A DNA stretch of 21,951 nucleotides. It comes from a virus. Positions 4,595-21,951 of this stretch are shown one piece after another (within the stretch, counting starts at the first letter, position 1; every line of letters starts with the position of its first letter). The stretch is taken from positions 1 to 21,951 of the IMG/VR virus record IMGVR_UViG_3300030419_006295. The stretch is one strand, 5' to 3'. The notes beneath the pieces are model-generated. The model worked only from the letters and a program-made list of their open reading frames with translations, was not told the DNA's origin and did no database searches. Both the position numbers and the translations under genes were made by a program.

Positions 4595-5370
4595 TGCCTC
4601 ACATATCTTTTTCTGAATTAAAAATATGGAATGAATGCTCTTGGAAGCATAAACTTGTTTATCTAGAAAAGATTAAAGGTTTTGAAGGCAATGAATACAC
4701 TGCCTTTGGAACTGCAATCCATTCTACGTGTGAGCAATTAGTCGAGCATAATATCTCAAACGCTGAAGATTATTTTCAGGAACAATTTTTAAAAGAATTA
4801 AAAACACTCCCAGAAGCGCACGAGTTCAATAAATCTTTAGTTCAGGATATGAGAAGACAGGGTAAAACATTGACTAAATATGTCCTACCTGCGTTAAAAG
4901 ATTACTTTGGAAGTTATTCTCTAGTTTCCGTTGAAGAAAAACTTTTTGAACCTATTCAGGATTATGAAGAATACAACTTTAAAGGTTATGTAGACCTTGT
5001 ACTTAAAACCCCAGATGATAAATATCACGTTATCGATTGGAAAACTTGTTCTTGGGGATGGGACAACAGAAGAAAGAGTGACAAAATGGTTAATTATCAA
5101 TTAACTTTATATAAATATTTTTTTGGTTTAAAACATAAAATAGAATCTGATAAGATAGAGACACATTTTGCTCTTCTCAAAAGAACTGCGAAAAATAATA
5201 ATATAGAGATATTCCGAGTGACAAGCGGTAATAAAAAAACTCAAAACGCACTTAAATTATTAAACAAGGCACTCTATAATATAAAAAAGAAACATTATGT
5301 TAAGAATCGCTTGACTTGCCACGGTAAATTTGGCACTTGCGAGTTTTATAATACAAAATACTGTACGTGA
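4594..5370 (+). CDS. PD-(D/E)XK nuclease, Cas4/AddB-like with probable Fe-S cluster
   Basis: The domain order matches RecB/Cas4-type exonucleases. Cys15 in the opening KIWNECSWKHK segment is followed by the GTAIH motif (His43), then GYVDLVL (Asp134) and VIDWKT (Asp148, Lys150), which form the nuclease active site, and a QLTLYKYF helix typical of the QxxxY motif. Three Cys near the end (242, 249, 257) with Cys15 make the four ligands of a 4Fe-4S cluster, although their spacing (C-x6-C-x7-C) is wider than the common pattern. The length of 258 residues suits a stand-alone Cas4-like enzyme. No cas genes or CRISPR array are nearby, so a role in phage recombination, replication or host DNA processing is more likely than adaptation. 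Confidence 0.88.
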   Translation: MPHISFSELKIWNECSWKHKLVYLEKIKGFEGNEYTAFGTAIHSTCEQLVEHNISNAEDYFQEQFLKELKTLPEAHEFNKSLVQDMRRQGKTLTKYVLPALKDYFGSYSLVSVEEKLFEPIQDYEEYNFKGYVDLVLKTPDDKYHVIDWKTCSWGWDNRRKSDKMVNYQLTLYKYFFGLKHKIESDKIETHFALLKRTAKNNNIEIFRVTSGNKKTQNALKLLNKALYNIKKKHYVKNRLTCHGKFGTCEFYNTKYCT

Positions 5371-5372
5371 GG
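5369..5372 (+). promoter_or_regulatory. ribosome binding site deciding the 5378 start
   Basis: GAGG lies five bases before GTG 5378 and just at the nuclease stop. An in-frame TTG at 5330 would add 16 residues unlike a GT4 N-terminus and has no ribosome binding site. Confidence 0.65.
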
Positions 5373-5377
5373 TAATA

Positions 5378-6643
5378 GTGGATAAAAAAATAAAGATCTT
5401 AACGATCAGCGATATGCCTTTTTCTCCATCCGGAGTAGGGTCACAAACAAAATATATAATTGAAGGAATGTTAAAAACTGGTAAATATCAATTTATTAGT
5501 TTAGGTGGGGCAATGAAACATCCCAAATACGACCCTCTTAGAACAAACGAATGGGGAGATGATTGGGTTATTTTCCCTGTTGACGGATACGGTTCACAGG
5601 AAATTGTCCGATCAGTTATAAGAACTCATAAGCCAGACATTCTTTGGTTTATGACGGACCCACGATTTTGGGGATGGTTATGGGAAATCGAAAATGAAAT
5701 TAGACCTTTAATACCAATGGTTTATTACCACGTTTGGGATAATTATCCTTACCCAGATTTTAATAAACAATATTATGATTCCAATGATTTTATAGCTACA
5801 ATATCAAAAGTAACGGACGATATTGTAAAGACGGTCTCACCAGACGTTGAATCTCTTTATGTTCCTCACGCGGTAGATACAGATATTTTTGTAAAAAGAG
5901 ACAAGCAAGAGGTAGAGGAGTTTGCTAAAAATTCTTTCGGGGATAAATACGATCCAGACAAATTTGTTTTCTTTTGGAACAATAGAAATGCTAGACGAAA
6001 ACAAAGCGGATCTTTAATTTTTTGGTTTAATGATTTTCTAGAAAAGGTGGGTAGAGACAAAGCATGCCTTATTATGCACACTGACCCTAAAGATGCTCAC
6101 GGGCAAGATTTAGAAGCTATACTAAAAAAATTAAATTTAACTGACGGTGAAGTTCTGTTTTCTCGTGAGAAAATTAGTGCTCCTATTTTATCTATGATGT
6201 ATAATATGGCTGATTGCACAATTAGTGTTTCTGATGCTGAAGGTTTTGGACTCGCAACCCTAGAATCATTGGCTTGTGAAACTCCAATTGTAGTCACAAT
6301 GACAGGAGGGTTACAAGAACAAGTCACAGATGGCGAAGAGTGGTTTGGTTTTGGAATAGAACCAGCGTCTAAAGCCATCATCGGATCTCAGCCGATCCCC
6401 TATATTTACGAGGATAGGGTTAGTGGAGAAGATGTAGTAGATGCAATGAAAAAAATATTTAATATGTCAGAAGAAGAGCGAGAAAAATTAGGAGAAAAAG
6501 GGCGTTCTCACGTAATGAAAAATTATAATTTTGAAAATTTTTATAAACAGTGGGACGAAGTTTTTACTAAAATTTATGAAGAAAGAGGATCGTGGGAAAA
6601 TAGAAAAGGATATAAGAAATGGCATCTTCAGGAGGTCAAATGA
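5378..6643 (+). CDS. GT4-family glycosyltransferase, 421 aa
   Basis: This is a GT-B fold, retaining-type glycosyltransferase using a nucleotide sugar. The N-terminal Rossmann domain opens KIKILTISDMPFSPSGVGSQ, with the usual glycine-rich turn near residue 20. The second domain has PHAVDTDIF (163-171), RNARRKQ (203-209) supplying the basic residues that contact the diphosphate, and AEGFGLATLESLACETPIV (from 287), the EX7E-type motif of GT4. The length is normal for the family. There is no membrane segment, so it should work in the cytoplasm or at the inner membrane face. It opens the run of glycosyltransferase genes and its stop overlaps the next ATG by four bases. Donor and acceptor cannot be read from the sequence. 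Confidence 0.93.
   Translation: MDKKIKILTISDMPFSPSGVGSQTKYIIEGMLKTGKYQFISLGGAMKHPKYDPLRTNEWGDDWVIFPVDGYGSQEIVRSVIRTHKPDILWFMTDPRFWGWLWEIENEIRPLIPMVYYHVWDNYPYPDFNKQYYDSNDFIATISKVTDDIVKTVSPDVESLYVPHAVDTDIFVKRDKQEVEEFAKNSFGDKYDPDKFVFFWNNRNARRKQSGSLIFWFNDFLEKVGRDKACLIMHTDPKDAHGQDLEAILKKLNLTDGEVLFSREKISAPILSMMYNMADCTISVSDAEGFGLATLESLACETPIVVTMTGGLQEQVTDGEEWFGFGIEPASKAIIGSQPIPYIYEDRVSGEDVVDAMKKIFNMSEEEREKLGEKGRSHVMKNYNFENFYKQWDEVFTKIYEERGSWENRKGYKKWHLQEVK
6630..6636 (+). promoter_or_regulatory. ribosome binding site deciding the 6640 start
   Basis: AGGAGGT ends three bases before ATG 6640, which overlaps the preceding TGA. The in-frame ATG at 6619 lies upstream of this site and is rejected. Confidence 0.8.
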
Positions 6644-7167
6644 GAAAGAAAGTATTAGTTAGAGGACCAGCATTAACAAGATCAGGCTACGGAGAGCACA
6701 CAAGGTTTGTTTTAAGATCTTTAAGGGCTTATGAGGAAGAATTTGATATATATTTAGTTACCACAAAATGGGGTCAAACTGGTTGGATTTGGGAAGATAG
6801 CGAAGAAAGAAAATGGATGGATGAGCTTATATCAAAGACTATTTTACATAAAGATGGTTATGATATAAGCTTACAAGTAACAATCCCTGTTGAATGGGAG
6901 AAGTTAGCTCCCGTGAACATAGGTATCACGGCAGGAATTGAGACCACAAAAGTGGCACCCGTATGGCTTGAAAAATCAAATGCGATGGATAGAATCATAA
7001 CAATATCTGAATTCGCTAAATCTGGGTTTACTAACACCAAATATGAAGGTTTTAATAAATTCACAAATGCTCCAATGCATCTTTCTTGTGAAACTCCAAT
7101 AGAAGTAGTGCATTATCCTACCAAGGATTTTGAAGATGTGCCTGTAGATCTAGATGTGTCTATTTAA
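6640..7167 (+). CDS. N-terminal half of a GT4 glycosyltransferase, frame broken at about 7160
   Basis: The 175 residues form the acceptor-side Rossmann domain of a GT4 enzyme: VRGPALTRSGYGEHTRFVL at the start, GITAGIETTKVAP, and DRIITISEFAKSGF near residues 125-138. The frame ends at a TAA just where the linker into the second GT-B domain should begin. The missing half continues at once in the +1 frame (7154-8629). Removing one base near 7160, or a +1 shift at the AUU-UAA codons, joins them into a 662-residue protein reading smoothly DVS-(I/F)NFLTVAQWGPRKN. It could be a true frameshift mutation, a sequencing or assembly error, programmed recoding, or two separately translated halves of an enzyme. 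Confidence 0.8.
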   Translation: MRKKVLVRGPALTRSGYGEHTRFVLRSLRAYEEEFDIYLVTTKWGQTGWIWEDSEERKWMDELISKTILHKDGYDISLQVTIPVEWEKLAPVNIGITAGIETTKVAPVWLEKSNAMDRIITISEFAKSGFTNTKYEGFNKFTNAPMHLSCETPIEVVHYPTKDFEDVPVDLDVSI

Positions 7168-8629
7168 TTTTTTGACTGTTGCGCAATGGGGTCCAAGAAA
7201 GAATATGGACAACACTGTTTGTTGGTTCGTTGAAGAATTTATAGATAATCCAGACGTTGGTTTGGTTGTGAAGACATTTAAAAGAGGTGGATCTAATATG
7301 GATAGAGTGGCTACTCTATCCCATTTAGAAAAATTATTGGCTCGTTATGAAGATAGAAAATGTAAAGTGTATCTTCTTCACGGAGATTTAAGCGATGAGG
7401 AAATGAACTCACTTTATAAAAGTTCTAAAATTGATGCTTTAATTTGTCTTACACACGGTGAAGGTTTTGGTCTTCCATTATATGAAGCGGCTTATCAAGG
7501 TTTACCGATAATCGCTCCCAATTGGAGTGGTCATTTGGACTTTTTATATATGCCAGTAAAGAAAAAAAACAAAGCGAAGGAAAAATTACGCGCACGATTT
7601 GCAAAAGTTGATGTTGATATATCACCAGTTCCTGATCACGCTGTATGGGAAAATGTAATACAAAAAGATTCTATGTGGTGTTACCCCAAACAAGGTTCTT
7701 ATAAAATGAAGCTACGAGACGTGTATAAAAAATATGATATACATAAAAAGAATGCAAAAGAACTACAAGAATGGATATTAAACAAATTCACACCAGAAAA
7801 TCAATATAAATTGATGATAGAAGCTGTTTTGGGAGAAGAAGTAGTTCACGTTGATGCCAAAGATCTTCCGAAGGTTTCTATTATAACTTCTGTATATGAC
7901 GGGGATGAATTTATTAGACCTTTCTTAGAAGATATTACACGCCAAACTATATTTAAAGAAAAGTGTGAATTAATATTAATTAATGCAAACTCACCAGGGA
8001 ATGAAGAAGAGGTAATTAATGAATATTTAGAAAAATATCCTGATAATATAGTATATAAAAAGCTTGATGAAGATCCAGGTATATATGGAGTTTGGAATAT
8101 TGGTGTAGAATTATCTACGGGTGAATATCTTACAAACGCAAACCTAGATGATAGAAAAGCGCCCAATCAATTAGAAAAATTATCAAAAGCTCTATATTTG
8201 TATGAAGATATTGATCTAGTATATGCTGATATGTATATGACACAACAACCCAATGAAACGTTTATAAATAATTCTTCGGGTGGGGTTAAATATGATTTTG
8301 CCGATTTTTCTTTGGAAAATCTTTTGAGAGCAAATATGCCACATGCCTCTCCTATGTGGAGGAAATCTTTACACAAAGAGAATGGCCTCTTTAATCCAAA
8401 ATATAAGTCTGCTGGAGATTGGGATATGTGGCTCCGATCGGCACTAAACGGAAGTATATATAAAAAAATCAATGATGTGCTTGGTTTATATTATTTCAAT
8501 CCGAAGGGTATATCTACTAATGTAGAGAATGTTGGATGGAAACGCGAAGAAGAAAAGGAGATCTTTTTGAAATATAAAAAGATATATGATGAAATGCTCG
8601 AAAAGGAAAAAGCTGGAGTTGTACTCTAA
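7154..8629 (+). CDS. GT4 C-terminal domain fused to a GT2 glycosyltransferase
   Basis: Counting from the ATG at 7154, residues 4-230 are the nucleotide-sugar-binding half of a GT4 enzyme (TVAQWGPRKN at 8-17, THGEGFGLPLYEA at 100-112). From 238 a second, GT-A fold GT2 enzyme begins: KVSIITSVYDG, ILINANSPG, GVWNIGVELSTGEYLTNANLDDRK with the DXD-like NLDD at 330-333, and AGDWDMW at 420-426 where GT2 has its acidic base motif. The first domain lacks its N-terminal half, which lies in the previous frame. The ATG at 7154 has no strong ribosome binding site, so independent initiation is doubtful. Two active sites in one chain would let the protein add two sugars in sequence. The stop shares a base with the next ATG (TAATG). 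Confidence 0.85.
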   Translation: MCLFNFLTVAQWGPRKNMDNTVCWFVEEFIDNPDVGLVVKTFKRGGSNMDRVATLSHLEKLLARYEDRKCKVYLLHGDLSDEEMNSLYKSSKIDALICLTHGEGFGLPLYEAAYQGLPIIAPNWSGHLDFLYMPVKKKNKAKEKLRARFAKVDVDISPVPDHAVWENVIQKDSMWCYPKQGSYKMKLRDVYKKYDIHKKNAKELQEWILNKFTPENQYKLMIEAVLGEEVVHVDAKDLPKVSIITSVYDGDEFIRPFLEDITRQTIFKEKCELILINANSPGNEEEVINEYLEKYPDNIVYKKLDEDPGIYGVWNIGVELSTGEYLTNANLDDRKAPNQLEKLSKALYLYEDIDLVYADMYMTQQPNETFINNSSGGVKYDFADFSLENLLRANMPHASPMWRKSLHKENGLFNPKYKSAGDWDMWLRSALNGSIYKKINDVLGLYYFNPKGISTNVENVGWKREEEKEIFLKYKKIYDEMLEKEKAGVVL

Positions 8630-10442: not shown

Positions 10443-11060
10443 ATGGAGTATTTAGGTACAGATTACGGTGGTTGGCTTGTAAACTTAAATCTTATCCCAG
10501 AAGGTTCGACCGTTATATCGGCTGGTGTAGGAGAGGATATAAGTTTTGATTTAGAGCTTATTAAGAAAAAAAGATGTAATATTGTTGGAATTGATCCCAC
10601 AAAAAAAAGTCATATTTTTATTGAATCTCAAAGAGGATTAAGTAATTTTTCTTTAATCAAACGAGCTTTGGATGCAAAATCAAATGATGTGGCTGTGATG
10701 TATCAAAACAACAACCCCCTACATGTATCCGAATCTATGCTGCCCACCCACAAGTCTGTAAATAATTTTCAAAGTTATTATGCCGAGACTATAGCACTTG
10801 ATGACTTATTCAAAAAATATGCTGATATATCTTTAATTAAGATGGATATAGAAGGTTCAGAATATAACGTTCTCGAATCTTTAAACAAAATTCCAGACAC
10901 AGTTAAACAACTTTGCATTGAATTTCATCATTTTTGTAGCGACTATACATTGGAAGATACAAAAAATATGATAGATAAATTGAGTTGTTTGGGTTTTACA
11001 AAGTGCCATCAAAATAAACCGAATTCATTTGCAGAAGTAACGCTAACGAGGTCACCATGA
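10443..11060 (+). CDS. FkbM-family SAM-dependent methyltransferase, 205 aa
   Basis: FkbM enzymes O-methylate sugars and other natural products with S-adenosylmethionine. The SAM-binding loop is SAGVGEDISFD (26-36), followed by the acidic GIDPTKK strand end (49-55). The family hallmark KMDIEGSEYNVLE lies at 133-145, and IEFHHF follows near 160. The protein is a single compact domain of normal length. It starts two bases after the preceding gene and its stop overlaps the next ATG (ATGA). Placed within the glycosyltransferase run, it most likely caps or decorates a sugar of the glycan. Confidence 0.9.
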   Translation: MEYLGTDYGGWLVNLNLIPEGSTVISAGVGEDISFDLELIKKKRCNIVGIDPTKKSHIFIESQRGLSNFSLIKRALDAKSNDVAVMYQNNNPLHVSESMLPTHKSVNNFQSYYAETIALDDLFKKYADISLIKMDIEGSEYNVLESLNKIPDTVKQLCIEFHHFCSDYTLEDTKNMIDKLSCLGFTKCHQNKPNSFAEVTLTRSP

Positions 11061-13236: not shown

Positions 13237-13395
13237 ATGGTAAGATGTTTAGTGATAGGACATAGAGGAAATATAGCTAATGCTAATTTAGATCGTGAAA
13301 ATTCTCCGGAATATATTTACGAAGCATTAAATAATATGAATGAATCAATAAAAATATCTACATTACCCAGTTTTAGAAAAGTAAGTTTAAAATGA
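13237..13395 (+). pseudogene. truncated GDPD/phosphodiesterase-like gene, 52 codons
   Basis: The first 32 residues, beginning MVRCLVIGHRGN and with RENSPEYIYEAL, match the N-terminal pattern of small glycerophosphodiesterase-like proteins (HRGN, then ENxPEYIxEA) that occur with HAD and nucleotidyltransferase genes in capsule clusters. These are normally about 200 residues, with the catalytic Glu-x-Asp next. Here the match stops after EALN and 20 unrelated residues follow to the TGA at 13393-13395. AAGGAAG at 13221-13227 and the ATGA overlap with the next gene are preserved, so it may still be translated. An internal deletion joining its start to its own or another end is the simplest explanation. 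A genuine shortened peptide is less likely. Confidence 0.6.
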
Positions 13396-14339
13396 TTATT
13401 ACAAAATGTCCTGTTAGAGTTAGTCTTGCTGGCGGCGGCTCAGATTTAGAATCATATATAAATGAACATGGGAGGGGTTCTGTTATTAATTTCCCTATAA
13501 ATATTTATACTTATATTGCTCTTCATCGAGATATAATAGGATACAATACTTATTGCAATAAATATTTGATGAATTATTCAAAAAGAGAAGAAGCTAGCTC
13601 CATAGAGGATATAAAAAATGATGTGATAAGAGTCGCGTTTGAACATTTTAATATTAAGCCATGCCTAATATCGATGGTAGGAGACATATTTTCCAGCGGG
13701 TCAGGTTTGGCAGTTTCTTCTTCTTACATGATAGCTCTAATTAAAGCAGTTGAAGAATCTTTGGGTATTTCAACCTCCAATTATGAGATAGCTAAACTTG
13801 CAATGACCCTTGAAAGAAAATTTAATTTCCTCTTGGGTTATCAAGATACTTATGGGTGCGCTGTTGGCAGTCTCAAAAGGATGGATTTTAAAAAAGGGAA
13901 AGATCCCAAGATTTCTTATTTAGCGAGCGATTTATTAAACACGTTTGATATGCATTTAATGTTCACAGGGGTAAGTAGATCGTCTACAAAAATATTGAGT
14001 ACTATTGAAAATTTTGACTATTCTTTGTTAGAATTAACAGATAAGATGCAAGAATGTTTAGAGACTAACAACCGGGAGATGTTTATAAATACGATAAAAG
14101 AAGGATGGGCAGTGAAAAAAGGTTCTTCACCAGATATAATTTCCAATTATTCTGTTAAAAGTATGGATTTAAACTTAGAAAAAGACAAAGATGTTTTATG
14201 TCACCGTTTGTGCGGAGCCGGGAATGGAGGATTTTTTCTAATATTTACAGACCCACAATCGGAATTGACAAAAAAATATAAATTTTGTAAGAAAATTAAT
14301 ATCAATCACACCGGGGTTACAACAGTTTTAGGAAATTAA
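13392..14339 (+). CDS. hddA: HddA-like GHMP kinase (sugar phosphate kinase), 315 aa
   Basis: GHMP kinase motifs appear in order: motif I CPVRVSLAGGGSDL (6-19), the phosphate-binding loop SSGSGLAVSSSYM (101-113), FLLGYQDTYG (146-155) with the likely catalytic Asp152, and motif III RLCGAGNGGFF (272-282). This set is that of D-glycero-D-manno-heptose-7-phosphate kinase and related LmbP/FKGP-type enzymes, and the length is close to normal for HddA. The reaction would be ATP-dependent phosphorylation of the anomeric hydroxyl of a heptose 7-phosphate. It is followed two or three bases later by a GmhA-like gene, which supports the heptose reading. The ribosome binding site is weak, and its ATG overlaps the stop of the truncated gene, so coupling is likely. 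Confidence 0.88.
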   Translation: MIITKCPVRVSLAGGGSDLESYINEHGRGSVINFPINIYTYIALHRDIIGYNTYCNKYLMNYSKREEASSIEDIKNDVIRVAFEHFNIKPCLISMVGDIFSSGSGLAVSSSYMIALIKAVEESLGISTSNYEIAKLAMTLERKFNFLLGYQDTYGCAVGSLKRMDFKKGKDPKISYLASDLLNTFDMHLMFTGVSRSSTKILSTIENFDYSLLELTDKMQECLETNNREMFINTIKEGWAVKKGSSPDIISNYSVKSMDLNLEKDKDVLCHRLCGAGNGGFFLIFTDPQSELTKKYKFCKKININHTGVTTVLGN

Positions 14340-14342
14340 TTT

Positions 14343-14849
14343 ATGAACTTAGATAAACTCATTAACACTATAGCTTCCATTGATAGACAAAAATTAACGC
14401 AATTGGAGGAAATTTTAAAAAGATATGATAAGATAATTCTTATTGGCAATGGCGGCAGTAATGCAATTGCTTCTCATATAGCTGTAGATTATACTAAATT
14501 TTTAAAAAAGAGGGCAATGGCCTTTACAAACACCTCAATGGTAACTTGTTATATGAACGATAGTGGTGTTGAAAATGCATATAGTGAATATATTAAAAAT
14601 TTTGCAGATGAGGAAACACTAGTGGTATTAATTTCTTCTTCTGGGAACTCGGAAAATATATGTAATTCTGCTTTATTGTGCAAAAACAGCGGTATTTCAT
14701 ACATACTTTTAACGGGCTTTTCATATGAAAATAAAGTTCGTTCTTTATATTCTGAAAGTGCTTTATTAGATTTGTGGGTAGATTCCAATTCTTATGCAAT
14801 CGTAGAGTGCGTGCACATGGTTTGCTTGCATGCAATGGTGGATGTGTGA
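14343..14849 (+). CDS. gmhA: GmhA-like SIS-domain phosphoheptose isomerase, 168 aa
   Basis: A single SIS domain of 168 residues. The substrate-phosphate loops are IGNGGSNAIASH (34-45) and ISSSGNSENI (97-106), and the end IVECVHMVCLHAM keeps the Glu155 and His158 positions used for metal binding in GmhA. GmhA converts sedoheptulose 7-phosphate to D-glycero-D-manno-heptose 7-phosphate, the first step toward activated heptoses. The size is slightly shorter than bacterial GmhA (about 190), and the C-terminal tail is missing. Its stop overlaps the GTG of the next gene by four bases (GTGA). Other SIS isomerases are possible, but the neighbouring HddA-like kinase makes heptose most likely. Confidence 0.88.
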   Translation: MNLDKLINTIASIDRQKLTQLEEILKRYDKIILIGNGGSNAIASHIAVDYTKFLKKRAMAFTNTSMVTCYMNDSGVENAYSEYIKNFADEETLVVLISSSGNSENICNSALLCKNSGISYILLTGFSYENKVRSLYSESALLDLWVDSNSYAIVECVHMVCLHAMVDV

Positions 14850-15235
14850 AAAAAAGAGGATTAATAGCCGGGACTTTTGATTTAATTCATCCTGGTTATA
14901 TTAAAATGTTTCAGGATGCTAAATCTGTTTGTGATCACCTAATCATCGCCTTACAGGAGGATCCGTCATTGGAAAGATCTACTAAATATAGCCCATTGCA
15001 TACGTTGGAAGAAAGAAAAATTATCCTCAATGCTATTAAATATGTTGATGAAATATGTGTATACAAGACGGAGAAAGATCTAGAAAATCTTTTGAAGAGT
15101 ATTCAACCTGACTATAGAATTTTAGGGAGCGATTATAAGAACGATCCCTTTACAGGAGATGAATTAAACATTGAGGTTTATTACCACGAAAGAGATCATG
15201 ATTGGTCTTATTCGAGATTGAGGAGGAAATTATAA
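14846..15235 (+). CDS. cytidylyltransferase-like nucleotidyltransferase, 129 aa
   Basis: This is a small class I nucleotidyltransferase. GTFDLIHPGYIKMFQDAK (from residue 9) is the nucleotide-binding HxGH motif in an HPGY form, where the second His is replaced by Tyr. The C-terminal WSYSRLRRKL takes the place of the ISSTxxR motif. Such enzymes join a nucleoside monophosphate to a sugar or alcohol phosphate (TagD, the C-domain of RfaE/HldE). In this operon it probably activates heptose 1-phosphate, taking the step of HddC or HldE; which nucleotide it uses cannot be read. The GTG start overlaps the GmhA stop; the longer in-frame opening at 14774 is rejected because it lies inside the gmhA gene and lacks family similarity. 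Confidence 0.85.
   Translation: MKKRGLIAGTFDLIHPGYIKMFQDAKSVCDHLIIALQEDPSLERSTKYSPLHTLEERKIILNAIKYVDEICVYKTEKDLENLLKSIQPDYRILGSDYKNDPFTGDELNIEVYYHERDHDWSYSRLRRKL
15221..15226 (+). promoter_or_regulatory. ribosome binding site deciding the 15235 start
   Basis: AGGAGG lies eight bases before ATG 15235, which shares its A with the preceding TAA. An in-frame TTG farther upstream near 15202 is not needed: the Rossmann strand begins exactly at MRAIVTGGAGF. Confidence 0.8.
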
Positions 15236-16152
15236 TGAGAGCAATAGTAACAGGTGGTGCTGGTTTTATCGGTGGCCATATAGTAGACCAGTTAATAGAA
15301 ATGGGATATGAAGTGGAAGCAATCGATAACGAGTCGGCAATATCTACAGAAACTTTCTATAAAAACAAGGATGTGACTTATCACAAAGTAGATGTTGCCG
15401 ATGTGGATGCAATGACTGCGATATTTGAAAATCTACATAACAATGGAAAGAATATTGATTATGTTTTTCATCTAGCGGCAGAAACAAAGATTCAATTAGC
15501 CATTAAAGATCCACAAAAAGCATTTCAAACAAATGTTATGGGCACTTTAAATTTGCTGGAATTATCACGCAAACACGGTGTAAAGAGAATTATATTTTCC
15601 AGTACTTCTGCTGTATACGGAGGAAATGAAGCTCCCAACGTAGAAACACAAACCCCCGATTGTTTAAATCATTACGCATCAAGCAAACTGTGTGGTGAAG
15701 AAATTTGTGATCTTTATAGTTCTTTATATAACATGGAAATTGTGAAACTGCGCTATTTTAATGTATATGGTGAGAGGATGCCCTCTAGAGGCACCTACGC
15801 TCCTGTAGTAGCCATATTTTTTAAACAAAAACAGAACAACGAGCCTTTAAGTATTGTGGGAGACGGCAAACAGCGTCGAGATTTTGTATATGTTAAAGAT
15901 GTTGTCCGAGCAAATATTATGTGCGCTCTAACTAAAAATCCGGATATTTTAGGTCAGGAATTAAATGTGGGGAGTGGAAAAAATTATAATATTCTTGATA
16001 TTGCGCGAAAGGTCGGAGGAGAGGTCTATCATTTGCCCCCACGATATGGTGAGGCTGATACTACTTTGGCCAGTGTAGATAAAATTCAGAGTCTGATAGG
16101 ATGGGTGCCAAGTGTTGACTTGTTGGACTGGATTGGGGAAAACAATGGATAA
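15235..16152 (+). CDS. NAD-dependent sugar epimerase/dehydratase (extended SDR), 305 aa
   Basis: An extended short-chain dehydrogenase acting on nucleotide sugars. NAD binding is shown by TGGAGFIGGH (6-15) and HLAAETK (79-85); the catalytic set is FSSTSAVYG (121-129) and Y147-x3-K151 in HYASSKLCGE. RYFNVYGER and GDGKQRRDFVYVKDV near 209-223 are the substrate-binding strands of UDP-glucose 4-epimerase-like (GalE/WbpP) enzymes. The length is normal. It could epimerise a UDP-sugar or work on the NDP-heptose made by the preceding genes. It overlaps the dehydrogenase gene by eight bases. The family is certain, the substrate open. Confidence 0.92.
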   Translation: MRAIVTGGAGFIGGHIVDQLIEMGYEVEAIDNESAISTETFYKNKDVTYHKVDVADVDAMTAIFENLHNNGKNIDYVFHLAAETKIQLAIKDPQKAFQTNVMGTLNLLELSRKHGVKRIIFSSTSAVYGGNEAPNVETQTPDCLNHYASSKLCGEEICDLYSSLYNMEIVKLRYFNVYGERMPSRGTYAPVVAIFFKQKQNNEPLSIVGDGKQRRDFVYVKDVVRANIMCALTKNPDILGQELNVGSGKNYNILDIARKVGGEVYHLPPRYGEADTTLASVDKIQSLIGWVPSVDLLDWIGENNG

Positions 16153-16987
16153 AATCAATGTTGGAATTATAGGTCAGGGGTATGTAGGTTCTGCTCTCAA
16201 AGAAGGCTTTAAAAGTTTTTATCGGATCGAGACATATGATAAATACAGACATGATCTTTCTACGTGCAAGTCGTTAAAAGACTTAAGTCAAAAAGCAGAA
16301 ATTATTTTTGTTTGTGTTCCCACTCCGATGCAAAAAGATGGAAGATGTGATTTGTCCATTATCCATGAGGTTGTGTCGGCCATTGATACGTGTAAAAATA
16401 ACAATATTTTAGTAATTAAATCTACCATACCCCCCGGCACCACCAGTATGCTTAACAAAGAATATGGTCATATACAGGCTGTCTTTAATCCTGAATTTCT
16501 TACAGAGGCCAACTTTATTGATGATTTTAAAAATCAATCTAAAATTATAATTGGTGGTCCGAGACCAGCATCAACCAAGGTCAAAAATCTTTATAGAAAG
16601 GTATTTCCGGAAACACCACTAATAAAAACAGGTTCAGATACTGCAGAAATGGTTAAATATTTTACTAATTGTTTTTTAATGACCAAAGTAAGTTTTGCTA
16701 ACGAAATTAAACAAATATGTGAAAAAATTGGTGTAGATTATGATAAAGTAGTAGAATATGGTTTGTATGACAAACGTTTGGGGAGATCTCATTTTTCAGT
16801 CCCAGGTCCGGACGGAAAATCTGGCTTTGGTGGATCGTGCTTTCCTAAAGATATAAACGCTCTAATCAAGGTTGCGGAAAATTTAAATATTGAAGCGACG
16901 GTTTTAAAATCAGTTTGGAAAAAGAATCTTGAAGTGAGACCTGAAAAAGACTGGGAACGTTTAAAAGGAAGGGCAGTAAGTGAGTAG
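16145..16987 (+). CDS. short UDP-glucose/GDP-mannose dehydrogenase-like protein, 280 aa
   Basis: The enzyme family oxidises the C6 hydroxyl of a nucleotide sugar to a uronate with two NAD. The N-terminal NAD domain has GIIGQGYVGSAL (7-18) and VCVPTP; the central domain has FNPEFLTE (114-121) with Glu121, EMVKYF with Lys171, and the catalytic Cys232 in GFGGSCFPKD. The usual enzyme is about 390-450 residues with a third, C-terminal nucleotide-sugar-binding domain; this protein stops after the central domain, at RPEKDWERLKGRAVSE. The stop is followed at once by another gene with its own strong ribosome binding site, so this seems a settled short form, not a recent break. The ATG at 16145 lies inside the end of the SDR gene. 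Confidence 0.9.
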   Translation: MDKINVGIIGQGYVGSALKEGFKSFYRIETYDKYRHDLSTCKSLKDLSQKAEIIFVCVPTPMQKDGRCDLSIIHEVVSAIDTCKNNNILVIKSTIPPGTTSMLNKEYGHIQAVFNPEFLTEANFIDDFKNQSKIIIGGPRPASTKVKNLYRKVFPETPLIKTGSDTAEMVKYFTNCFLMTKVSFANEIKQICEKIGVDYDKVVEYGLYDKRLGRSHFSVPGPDGKSGFGGSCFPKDINALIKVAENLNIEATVLKSVWKKNLEVRPEKDWERLKGRAVSE

Positions 16988-16993
16988 GAGGGG
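16986..16993 (+). promoter_or_regulatory. ribosome binding site deciding the 16998 start
   Basis: AGGAGGGG lies just before the GTG at 16998. An in-frame GTG at 16980 lies upstream of this site and would place it inside the coding region, so 16998 is preferred. Confidence 0.75.
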
Positions 16994-16997
16994 ACTG

Positions 16998-17171
16998 GTG
17001 GCGGGAGATTTTGTAAAACATAAAAGAATAGGATTCTTACAATTTGGTCTCATAAAAGAAATTTTATTTACTGCGGAAAAGATCCCTTTATACAACGTTT
17101 TGTGGGTCGCCCGAAAAGAATTTGAGCGTACCACTTATCATTTAGCAGAGGAATTAGAATTAGCCTATTAA
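16998..17171 (+). CDS. small hypothetical protein, 57 aa
   Basis: Starting from GTG 16998 the protein opens MAGDFVKHKR and consists of alternating short hydrophobic strands (IGFLQFGLI, YNVLWVARKE), the pattern of a small beta-barrel such as an SH3-like domain. It ends in an acidic helix. I know no function. It sits between the short dehydrogenase and gmd with nine bases to gmd. A strong ribosome binding site supports expression. Confidence 0.65.
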   Translation: MAGDFVKHKRIGFLQFGLIKEILFTAEKIPLYNVLWVARKEFERTTYHLAEELELAY

Positions 17172-17180
17172 AATAATATT

Positions 17181-18167
17181 ATGAAAACAGCACTAATAAC
17201 AGGAATCACCGGACAAGATGGCTCTTACTTGGCAGATTTTCTTCTGAGTAGGGGTTATTATGTTGTGGGGCTTAAGAGAAGAACGTCTATGATACACACA
17301 AAAAGAATTGATTCTTTTTATAATCATCCCAATTTTAAGCTTCATTATCATAATTTGAATGATAGTGGTTGTTTCTGGAGAATGATTTTAAAATACAGAC
17401 CAGATGAAGTTTATAATTTAGCCGCACAGTCACACGTAAGAGTTTCTTTTGAAACCCCAGAAGAAACGGTCGAATCTATTGCAATGGGAACTTTAAGAAT
17501 GTTGGAGGCAATACGAACAATTGATCCCACTGGAAATCAAATAAAGTTTTATCAAGCGTCTTCTTCTGAGATGTTTGGTGACAACCCAAATTATCCTTTT
17601 AATGAGGATTCTAAAATGTCACCCGCGTCTCCTTATGCTTGCGCCAAACTATTTTCTCATAATTTGGTTAGGAATTATAGAGAAGCTTATGGTCAGTTTG
17701 CTTGCAGTGGGATTTTGTTTAATCACGAATCCCCAAGAAGAGGGGAAACTTTTGTAACGCGAAAGATAACTATGGCTGCAGCCAAAATAAAAATGGGGCT
17801 TCAAGATAAATTGTTTTTAGGAAACTTAAATGCTAAAAGAGATTGGGGCTTTGCTGGTGACTATGTGGAGGCCATGTGGCTAATGTTACAACAAGACGTT
17901 CCGGATGATTTTGTAATATCAACAGGTGAAACACATTCTGTGAAAGAGTTTTTAGATTGTGTATTTGAAATCGCGGATCTCAATGTTGATGAACATGTTG
18001 AAATTACGGAGAGATTGTTTAGACCGCACGAAGTGCCTTATTTGCTTGGCGATTTTTCTAAAGCAAAAAAAGTTTTAAAATGGGAACCAAAAATTAAATT
18101 CAAAGAACTAGCAGAGATGATGTATAATAGTGATATTGAAAAAATTAAAAAAGGAGAAATTAAATGA
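17181..18167 (+). CDS. gmd: GDP-mannose 4,6-dehydratase (Gmd), 328 aa
   Basis: Gmd converts GDP-D-mannose to GDP-4-keto-6-deoxymannose, the branch point to fucose, rhamnose and perosamine; relatives act on GDP-manno-heptose. The motifs are typical: [17 protein letters not shown] at the start, [16 protein letters not shown] (78-93), ASSSEMFG (126-133) with the catalytic Ser/Glu region, and SPYACAKL with Tyr152 and Lys156. [17 protein letters not shown] (181-197) and [14 protein letters not shown] complete the GDP-sugar site. The length is slightly short of the usual 345-375. No strong ribosome binding site precedes ATG 17181. No GDP-fucose synthase follows, so the keto sugar may be used by another reductase, the SDR upstream, or host enzymes. 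The heptose genes upstream make a GDP-heptose substrate possible. Confidence 0.95.
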
Positions 18168-18937: not shown

Positions 18938-19627
18938 ATGCCAAAAAAGAAAAATCATTATTTTACTAAAATACACGAAGAAGCAATTATACAATATTGT
19001 ATTTCTGATGATATGAGAGAGAAAAATCAATTATATAATACCCTTATAGGCCCAGCATTTAACGAGATGGTGGACAAAATTGTTTTTACTTATAAGTTCA
19101 CAAATCTTCCTAATGTTGAATATCTTAAAGAAGATTGTAAAAACTGGTTAATAACCATATTAGATAAATATGATCCCTATAGGGGTTCAAAAGCATTTTC
19201 TTATTTTAGTGTTATAACTAAGAACTGGTTTATTCATAAGGTCAAAAAGAACTCCCAACAATCAAAAAGAGAAATTATGATAGATAAAGTTCTGGTGAAT
19301 GAAATACAAGATAGTAGTGTAGTTAATCCTCTGGTGATACACAACACTTACGTTGAAGACGAAATCAAGAAAGAATTTTGGATTTCATTCAAAAAACATA
19401 TGCAAGCTTGGGAAAAACTCCCAGTTAGAGAGAACGAACACAGAGTTATTCAGGCGATTAAGATACTCTTTGAAGAATCAGAGAATATAGAAATTTTCAA
19501 CAAAAAAGCTATTTACTTATACATAAGAGAAATCACGGGTTTGAATACTAAGCAGGTTGTAAGCAGTCTCAATAGAATACGAGTCCGTTACAGGGAGTTC
19601 AAAACAAAATGGGACGAGGAAGAATAA
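18938..19627 (+). CDS. T4 gp55-like late transcription sigma factor, 229 aa
   Basis: The centre holds a sigma region 2-like block, CKNWLITILDKYDPYRGSKA then FSYFSVITKNWFIHKVKK (67-104), which binds the core polymerase and recognises the -10 element. This is the pattern of T4 gp55 and its relatives, divergent sigma factors that read TATAAATA late promoters. It is longer than T4 gp55 (about 185). The last 80 residues are helical and basic, ending in FKTKWDEEE. There is no region 4, as expected. The gene lies five bases after the membrane protein gene and overlaps the next by 19 bases. A TATAAATA motif before the lipoprotein protease is a possible target. Confidence 0.82.
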   Translation: MPKKKNHYFTKIHEEAIIQYCISDDMREKNQLYNTLIGPAFNEMVDKIVFTYKFTNLPNVEYLKEDCKNWLITILDKYDPYRGSKAFSYFSVITKNWFIHKVKKNSQQSKREIMIDKVLVNEIQDSSVVNPLVIHNTYVEDEIKKEFWISFKKHMQAWEKLPVRENEHRVIQAIKILFEESENIEIFNKKAIYLYIREITGLNTKQVVSSLNRIRVRYREFKTKWDEEE

Positions 19628-19914
19628 AGAGTGTTGATGATTATATCCAAGAGTCATTAACAAATATCCGCGACGACCGAGCCATAACATCTACTTTATT
19701 AACAGAATTAATGATTGAAATGAAAAAGGTCGGAGATCTTGATACTCACAAGGAACTCGGCTTAATAGCTTCTAAATATGTTGAAACTCTTCAACGATCC
19801 AATGAACAACTAGTAAAAATAACTAATATTTTAAGCAAAAAACAAGAAAGTTCTGTTGAACTAAATGACAACGATAAAGAGCAACTTTTTGATTTAATTC
19901 AAGGAGAAAAATAA
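19609..19914 (+). CDS. hypothetical protein downstream of the late sigma factor, 101 aa
   Basis: A mostly helical, charged protein (SLTNIRDDRAITSTLLTELM, then KELGLIASKYVETLQRSNEQL) with an acidic end, no signal and no membrane segment. It overlaps the sigma gene by 19 bases and ends three bases before the hydrolase gene start. Size and position would suit a T4 gp33-like late co-activator, but I see no motif that shows this; other options are a small structural or assembly protein. Unknown function. Confidence 0.65.
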   Translation: MGRGRIKSVDDYIQESLTNIRDDRAITSTLLTELMIEMKKVGDLDTHKELGLIASKYVETLQRSNEQLVKITNILSKKQESSVELNDNDKEQLFDLIQGEK

Positions 19915-19917
19915 TCT

Positions 19918-21951
19918 ATGTCTACCCAAGACAAAAAGCCGGGAAACTTTGAAGCAGGAAGTCCAGTTCCTATTTTAAATTTGCCAATTGGTCAACTCAA
20001 CGATGTTATATCAGATGATGTTGGCGCTCAATCAATTGACTTTAATAGCGAAACAGCAATGTCTGTTATGGCACGCTCAACTGTTAAGGCTTTCACTCCT
20101 AATAAATTAGCTAACAGTGGTATACTTTTTGGTGTTATGTTGAGGGAAGAAATACCACCAGCAACAGGAGAAAAAATCTTAAGTGGTTTGGATAAGGCTC
20201 TTGAAGTAGCTGGAAGTGCACCGTTGGAGCTTAAAAAATATCGTGTTATGATCCCCGAATATCACGTTGGTCGTCCGGTTCCCACTAATTTAACAACCCC
20301 TACTGATTTTGATAATAAAATAATTGATTTATATCCTATTTTTGAGGCTTACGACACTGCTGTGGGCCTTGAAACCGTCAAGCCGGGGGATTTGGTCAAG
20401 GTGATGTTTAACAACACTGGTACGCGCTCTAGAGGGTTCTATCTAGGTCCTGTGAAGACAGATAGAGCTAGTCTAGGAGCAGGGGGAAATCCAAGTGGTC
20501 AAAACATTGCAAATGGTTTTAACTGTGGCTCTGGTAATCAAACATCGGGTGCTCCCGGCGATGGAACCTTATCATCTCCCACAACGTTCCCTGCTTCCCC
20601 TACTGCGACCGGACCTTGGAGTGCACCCGTTATCACTGAAGGTCAGGGGCACGGTAAAATTGAATTAATTCAAGGCCCCAATGCACAAAAGTGGCTAGCG
20701 AAAGGATTAGAAAAATATCAACAAAAAGGCTCCTACCAAGGGCTTTTATATGTAGGTAGGCTAGCCTCTAACGGCGCAACTGATGATGTAAATATGAAAG
20801 AAGGCGCAGGAAGAGGAACTTGGATATATATGCCAGCCATTTGTAATCCAAACCAACCAATAGAACTTATATATTGGTTTCACGGCATCAGGGGTTTTAC
20901 AAGCAATGATTACGGTAATCGTTTAAAAAAAGCCTCAAAAAGCTGGGAGAAAGCAAAAAGAAATTTCATTTTAGTCCAGCACGAATGTCTATGGTCGAAA
21001 GAAAACGCCGCCAAAAAAACAGGAGTTCAAAGACAAAAAACAGATAGAGGTGCAAGAGGTTGGACAGACAGACAATGGAATAATTATGGCTATCAAAGAA
21101 CTTCCGAAAATGCGACCGGACTTTGGGGTCCACCTGCTGGAATTACCAAGCCAGCGAATTTCGTTGAGGGTAGATATCCTGATTATATAACACCAAAATG
21201 GCCAAATGCTATCCCTGCGGGTGGGAATTTTTATGAAATGCATAAAGAAACTATGCAAATACTTCAAAAAACATTTGGTGTGAAGGACACAAGCAAGGTT
21301 CAAGTCACAGTAATGGGGCATTCTGCGGGGGGAGCAGCTATCGGCGGCGCAGCAAGAATGGGGCAATTGGCCCAAGTTAGGCCCAACCGAATTGTTTTTT
21401 CAGATGCGATATATGCTGGTAGCACTACGAATGGCTTTGCTGACAGCGATATTTTTGATGTATTCCAATATTATGTCAAAGACAACCCTCAGTGCCTTTT
21501 AGAGTCCCACACAACAAACGATGGAAGTAAATCTCCATTAAAAAATTCTTATGCTTTTTTTGGGGCCTTGAAAAAAGCTGTGGACGAACTTCCTAATGGT
21601 GATTACACAAGCATTGCCAATAAAATGATTGAGAACGTTTGGAAAAATATGATTTATAAAGATCTAAAAGGTGATAAAAAGATTGAGGCTAGTATTCAAA
21701 CAAAAAAAGATTCTAAGAATAGAATACAAAGTAAGGTTTTATGGGATTATTATAGTATAGGAAAAAAAGTTATTAATAATAAAAGCGAAGCCTATGTTGT
21801 TCCACTCTCTAAATTTCCCAATCTGGCATTTAAGAGTTGGTTGATGCCAACCGTCCCGCCGAAGAAGAAACATTCAGCAGCAGCAGTTCCAATATTACAG
21901 TTTATACCTACAAATGTTTCACCTCCAATTACTACGGATGCCGCTACCCCG
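19918..21951 (+). CDS. virion spike-like protein: OB-fold plus alpha/beta-hydrolase domain (3' end outside window)
   Basis: The frame is open for 678 residues to the window edge. Residues 105-180 look like the gp5-type OB-fold of phage tail spikes: KYRVMIPEYHVGRPVP, IIDLYPIF, KPGDLVKVMF and GFYLGPV. Residues 182-237 are a Gly/Ser/Thr/Pro linker. From about 298 an alpha/beta-hydrolase follows: IELIYWFHGIRG (315-326) with the HG oxyanion turn, and VTVMGHSAGG (463-472) with nucleophile Ser469 in the G-x-S-x-G elbow. Asp496 in FSDAIY and His531 or His652 could complete the triad. AAGGAG at 19903-19908 supports the ATG. Such spikes usually carry lysozyme or peptidase domains; an esterase or lipase here could attack acyl groups of the outer membrane, LPS or capsule. 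The OB call is by eye; the hydrolase call is firm. Confidence 0.82.
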   Translation, partial: MSTQDKKPGNFEAGSPVPILNLPIGQLNDVISDDVGAQSIDFNSETAMSVMARSTVKAFTPNKLANSGILFGVMLREEIPPATGEKILSGLDKALEVAGSAPLELKKYRVMIPEYHVGRPVPTNLTTPTDFDNKIIDLYPIFEAYDTAVGLETVKPGDLVKVMFNNTGTRSRGFYLGPVKTDRASLGAGGNPSGQNIANGFNCGSGNQTSGAPGDGTLSSPTTFPASPTATGPWSAPVITEGQGHGKIELIQGPNAQKWLAKGLEKYQQKGSYQGLLYVGRLASNGATDDVNMKEGAGRGTWIYMPAICNPNQPIELIYWFHGIRGFTSNDYGNRLKKASKSWEKAKRNFILVQHECLWSKENAAKKTGVQRQKTDRGARGWTDRQWNNYGYQRTSENATGLWGPPAGITKPANFVEGRYPDYITPKWPNAIPAGGNFYEMHKETMQILQKTFGVKDTSKVQVTVMGHSAGGAAIGGAARMGQLAQVRPNRIVFSDAIYAGSTTNGFADSDIFDVFQYYVKDNPQCLLESHTTNDGSKSPLKNSYAFFGALKKAVDELPNGDYTSIANKMIENVWKNMIYKDLKGDKKIEASIQTKKDSKNRIQSKVLWDYYSIGKKVINNKSEAYVVPLSKFPNLAFKSWLMPTVPPKKKHSAAAVPILQFIPTNVSPPITTDAATP

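Follow-up and report, generated by a model that had tools for sequence, protein, structure and literature searches.

The last open reading frame of the window, as we call the viral contig of 21,951 bases that was analysed here over its whole length, begins with an ATG and is still open where the contig stops, so that 678 residues of its product are available. The first-pass annotation had placed the reading frame at 19918-21951 with its 3' end missing, and this holds. The known part of the protein comprises an N-terminal OB-like module, a disordered linker and an alpha/beta-hydrolase module, whose positions are collected in Table 1 together with the candidate catalytic residues and the two genes preceding the reading frame.

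Table 1. Features at the 3' end of the window (positions in the 21,951-base contig; aa, residues of the 678-aa protein)
Feature	Position	Strand	Remarks
Late sigma factor gene	18938..19627	+	synteny anchor; phrog_234, E 9e-6
Small conserved gene between sigma and spike	19609..19914	+	101 aa; ~100-aa gene there in most related loci
Putative central-spike ORF	19918..21951	+	678 aa; homologues at the equivalent position 1038-1517 aa
OB-like spike module	20095..20463	+	aa about 60-182; AF2 strands 69-178, HMM
Disordered linker	20464..20649	+	aa about 183-244; pLDDT <50; conserved C203, G214-D215
Predicted alpha/beta-hydrolase module	20650..21921	+	aa about 245-668; AF2 model, structural matches
Oxyanion-type H322-G323	20881..20886	+	HG in 5/5 complete members
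Nucleophile elbow GHSAGG, S469	21316..21333	+	AF2: S469 flanked by strand 461-468 and helix 471-480
Candidate catalytic acid D496, past the next strand	21403..21405	+	Asp in 5/5 Ser+/HG+ members
D535 (TTND), alternative catalytic acid	21520..21522	+	after strand 527-533; AF2 topology
H652, candidate catalytic histidine	21871..21873	+	11 residues past the last strand, 636-641 (AF2)

Further genes were noted in the remainder of the window. Positions 13392-18167 hold a nucleotide-sugar cassette with an HddA-like heptose kinase (E 3e-27), a GmhA-like isomerase, an HldE-type adenylyltransferase, an NAD-dependent epimerase, a nucleotide-sugar dehydrogenase and a GDP-mannose 4,6-dehydratase. The latter two score 209.3 and 452.3 bits, above their respective NCBIfam cut-offs of 189.8 and 415 bits; the heptose-type assignments stay below theirs. 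By eye, a run of glycosyltransferase-like open reading frames can be recognized between 5330 and 12683 (e.g., 5330-6643 and 7154-8629), within which an FkbM-family methyltransferase is encoded at 10443-11060. The only long convincing gene on the minus strand (1145-1870) codes for a serine protease, HtrA/Do-like, whose start resembles that of a lipoprotein.

Used directly as query, the window protein retrieved no relative from 50,697 isolate phage records nor, by sequence, from viral contigs, PHROGs or the PDB, and its sole Pfam match is Esterase (PF00756) with an E value of 0.046 and 13.9 bits vs a cut-off of 22. Relatives were reached solely via the neighbouring late sigma gene, which is located two genes upstream of the spike and has 598 relatives in viral contigs. 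Of these, 80 loci were retained, all of uncultured phage. The gene in the spike slot of the sigma-anchored loci codes for 197-1517 aa, and its homology to the window reading frame extends, in the closest set, across nearly the full length with 28-31% identity. A scan of the GTDB genomes for an active-type hydrolase module found none, and in the open-licence literature, represented mostly by titles and abstracts, no paper on a spike with such a module was found.

The gene order in these relatives indicates what kind of slot the reading frame occupies. Behind the sigma gene, most related loci have a gene for about 100 aa and, ~300 bases further, one of very variable length. Downstream of this spike gene the relatives have a gene for ~330 aa, a giant gene, gp25 and a gp6-like wedge gene; in the locus L175, which stems from the contig of the homologue L099, the series reads spike, 319 aa, 2410 aa, gp25 and a gp6-like wedge protein of 610 aa. 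A gp25 gene was found in 10/10 contigs of relatives searched and PHROG matches to gp6-like proteins lie downstream of the spike where checked. Baseplate_J was not found in 10 relatives. Furthermore, an equivalent order with annotated baseplate genes is seen in Flavobacterium phage immuto, the sigma protein of which has 32% identity. As the window ends inside the gene, we infer from the relatives that the slot is that of the baseplate central spike, and the spike-type position beside tail genes that had been expected from the letters of the window is indeed found in them.

The gene after the spike codes for ~300-500 aa in the relatives. It is located at 4270-5229 in L175 and shares with its homologues the strongly conserved core KADxxRIIxREGIKI as well as an HxH that is nearly invariant. 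No library, PDB profile search included, gave a useful match; with its conserved HxH the gene is possibly a candidate for the needle. The 2410-aa gene between this needle candidate and gp25 (L175:5243-12475) is without a PHROG or Pfam match.

The AF2 model of the window protein has a mean pLDDT of 69, with most of the hydrolase core at 75-96. In its N-terminal part five strands are predicted between residues 69 and 178 in an OB-like order (strands 69-78 and 107-111, helix 130-136, strands 141-144, 159-165, and 172-178), the helix preceding the third strand. Among the syntenic spikes, 33 are matched by an HMM of residues 18-185; 10 of these served in training it. Using Foldseek against viral models (BFVD), a VgrG-like protein and gp5 of Tenacibaculum phage PTm1 were obtained with probabilities of 0.98-0.99, but with E values of 0.035-0.074. 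Likewise, hhalign with nine T4-type gp5 OB domains yields a matching register, which pairs KVRIPELH with RVRVxGxH and puts the strand of GDLV opposite that of GxxV, but not a significant score (E 0.11-0.13). Phage_base_V matches 1/33 of the module members, at E 0.046, and the profile of the module found nothing useful in the PDB. The N-terminal module thus likely adopts an OB fold. The OB fold proposed in the first-pass annotation is consistent with this strand order, although its bounds have to be moved from 95-185 to about 65-180. The linker that follows had been taken for low-complexity sequence. Its disorder is reproduced by the model (pLDDT <50 over 181-242), but it is more than low complexity because C203 and G214-D215 do not vary among 11 homologues.

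The larger part of the protein is modelled as an alpha/beta-hydrolase of the CE1/esterase-D fold. Over a model range of about 253-668 the best structural matches are CE1 feruloyl/acetyl-xylan esterases, with 6mou (Z 13.3) and 1gkk (Z 13.2) as feruloyl esterases, S-formylglutathione hydrolases and esterase D. The homologue L099, modelled as a control, again gave 6mou as top match (Z 14.3). Hydrolase profiles yielded no more than matches to a feruloyl esterase at E 0.07-0.44. The FHG turn with H322-G323 and the GHSAGG motif at 467-472 are present as claimed, and in the model S469 is placed at a nucleophile elbow. Together with the CE1 matches at Z 13 this bears out the earlier assignment as a serine alpha/beta-hydrolase. 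Two insertions are predicted, one at about 372-432 with low confidence and a helical one at 538-622. A standalone homologue of the hydrolase with 299 aa and a signal-peptide-like start is encoded in a 284-kb contig (L121:4944-5843) and scores 27.7 bits against Pfam Esterase, above the cut-off of 22.

Other spikes of the lineage carry other enzymes at this place. When the sequence behind the OB module of 53 further spikes was compared with Pfam, we found VanY (9), Amidase_2 (6) and GDSL/SGNH (3), and one each, among others, of M23, Amidase_3, SLT, GH46, M74 and CHAP. The region after the OB module is a swappable enzyme cassette. With SGNH a second esterase fold, unrelated to the alpha/beta-hydrolase, is found in the spike slot: L022 has an SGNH domain with GDSQ, GGND and DGIH directly after the OB module, and weaker SGNH-type relatives occur at the spike slot of L034, L064 and L059. 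The spikes of close relatives of the window continue with a second, degenerate hydrolase-like copy and then with an M74-like domain with the motifs SHREGIDxD and HFHVR (E 1e-4 to 0.03, which does not reach the curated cut-off), and in L010 the spike ends in an Amidase_2 domain. By analogy the missing 3' end of the window gene probably holds a murein endopeptidase-like or amidase domain. The esterase had been viewed as taking the place of the usual wall hydrolases. An esterase fold is indeed predicted in the spike, but since a murein peptidase or amidase probably resides in the missing end, it would add to the wall hydrolases and not replace them.

The presence of the fold does not by itself imply catalysis. 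We compared the 38 hydrolase modules with a readable active site, the counts being not phylogenetically independent. The serine, the HG and the aspartate after the next strand are found together in 5/38 modules (the window, L097, L099, L120, and L121), whereas 31/38 have neither serine nor HG; the two mixed modules are L043 with the serine only (without HG or Asp) and L107 with HG only. At the oxyanion position all members other than the complete ones have, nearly without exception, HD or HN. As read from the aligned residues, the catalytic positions are retained or lost jointly. Most relatives of the esterase module appear to be non-catalytic while the window copy seems intact. As nearly all relatives are devoid of the nucleophile, catalysis has to be argued for this copy and cannot be assumed for the whole family.

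The first-pass annotation had named neither the acid nor the histidine of the putative active site. As catalytic acid we propose D496 and/or D535; D535 is not conserved in the other members, and its position corresponds to that of the catalytic acid in CE1/esterase D. The four other serine-containing members have a histidine after the last strand within HGWCGxN, HFWCGxN or HGRIGNN, and sequence alignment alone placed no catalytic histidine in the window. In the control model H369 of L099 is found 9 residues past the last strand, comparable to H652 in the window model. Moreover, the PDB chains shared by both structural alignments end at residue ~666 of the window model and at residue ~383 of L099, and because these end points are offset by ~283, H369 of L099 corresponds to residue 652 of the window. 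The model topology and the end points suggest that H652 is at the expected place of the catalytic histidine, in a region with a pLDDT of about 62-66. The alternative that the window has no catalytic histidine was dropped since the AF2 topology puts H652 after the last strand. H531, which is invariant in the close clade, was rejected as catalytic histidine as it is part of strand 527-533 and precedes the place usual for the acid.

We suggest, with a probability of about 0.6, that the gene codes for a central spike with a serine esterase which probably acts on glycan O-acyl groups and is coupled to wall hydrolysis. The protein would be the baseplate central spike of an uncultured myovirus-type phage, gp5-like by its position and its OB-like module, and tail contraction would drive it through the outer membrane. 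The esterase module, with S469, H652, D496 or D535 and the oxyanion H322-G323, would then strip ester-linked acyl groups from a cell-envelope glycan, candidates being O-acetylated peptidoglycan, LPS or capsule. The wall would be opened by the missing C-terminal domain, which in close relatives is a murein endopeptidase or amidase. Across most of the lineage the esterase would have decayed to a non-catalytic domain, the copy in the window being seemingly intact.

The strongest rival to this reading, doubtful but to be taken seriously, is that the window copy has lost its activity as well, the fold being a glycan-binding or structural spacer domain of the spike, its probable role in most relatives, and GHSAGG a relic. 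The serine is lost in 11/11 sister-clade homologues of the window and, except in L043, in a second group of 21 members. The module was kept long after the loss of the serine, which implies a non-catalytic role, and the assignment of H652 is uncertain. According to the tree, the window diverges below the 11 serine-less close homologues (90/79 support) and is the only member of its own clade with serine, HG and aspartate, whereas the four other serine-containing members group, weakly, with L107 (80/73); the distribution of the serine on this tree needs three changes. Yet the branch leading to the window is long (1.57 changes per site), and drift without catalysis would hardly have preserved serine, HG and D496 together on it. 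In addition, the window has a histidine at the expected place.

If the copy is an active esterase, its substrate could also be a lipid. The first-pass annotation had left open whether membrane or glycan would be deacylated, and an outer-membrane lipase or phospholipase acting on lipid A or phospholipids, similar to the VgrG-borne lipase effectors, would fit the spike position; the alpha/beta-hydrolase fold includes lipases, and the two insertions could act as a lid. However, the best structural matches are carbohydrate and small-substrate esterases and not Tle lipases (neither Tle nor LysB structures are among the matches listed), and the companion modules act on murein. Thus we consider a lipase unlikely. 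From the CE1-like fold and the murein-hydrolase company we favour an O-acyl glycan over lipid as the putative substrate. That the gene codes for a free lysis enzyme which sits in the tail gene cluster by chance is very improbable: endolysins, too, carry murein-hydrolase domains, but the OB-like module is conserved and its place among the baseplate genes is fixed across the lineage.

Lysozyme, peptidase and similar modules are known from central spikes and tail hubs. The proposed spike esterase resembles gp5 of T4, the baseplate hub subunit and tail lysozyme, in its gene position at the baseplate with a gp6-type wedge downstream and in carrying an envelope-degrading enzyme behind its N-terminal OB-like module. 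It differs from gp5 in having an esterase fold instead of a lysozyme, in that the sequence similarity is not significant, and in that the known part of the protein has no recognizable C-terminal beta-helix. The tail tip of the Anabaena myophage A-1(L) also has more than one envelope-hydrolysing domain; there, lysozyme-like, endoglucanase and peptidase domains sit on the hub gp15, apart from the OB spike gp25 (PMC10966104). VgrG spikes of type VI secretion with fused or associated enzymes, for example, VgrG2b (PMC6899460), are likewise spikes with enzyme cargo, but the window has a phage baseplate context, a predicted CE1-type fold and no visible effector-immunity arrangement. With the CE1/esterase D/S-formylglutathione hydrolase enzymes (PF00756) the window module shares the fold (Z 12-13), the topology of the nucleophile elbow and the HG oxyanion turn. 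In contrast to them it is fused to a phage spike, has large insertions and stays below the Pfam cut-off, and most of its relatives appear non-catalytic.

More tentatively, the spike may be an exchange site for envelope enzymes in a deep uncultured lineage, which would have recruited two unrelated serine-esterase folds, the alpha/beta-hydrolase and SGNH. Glycan de-esterification would then be a regular step of penetration, and the alpha/beta version would repeatedly have lost catalysis and been kept as a non-catalytic domain. O-acetylation shields peptidoglycan from lysozyme-type enzymes. If our reading is true, deacylation of envelope glycans, for instance of O-acetylated peptidoglycan, would be a further activity of some phages. 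In the lineage, intact and decayed versions of a single enzyme would occupy one and the same slot and form a natural series by which the need for catalysis during penetration may be tested.
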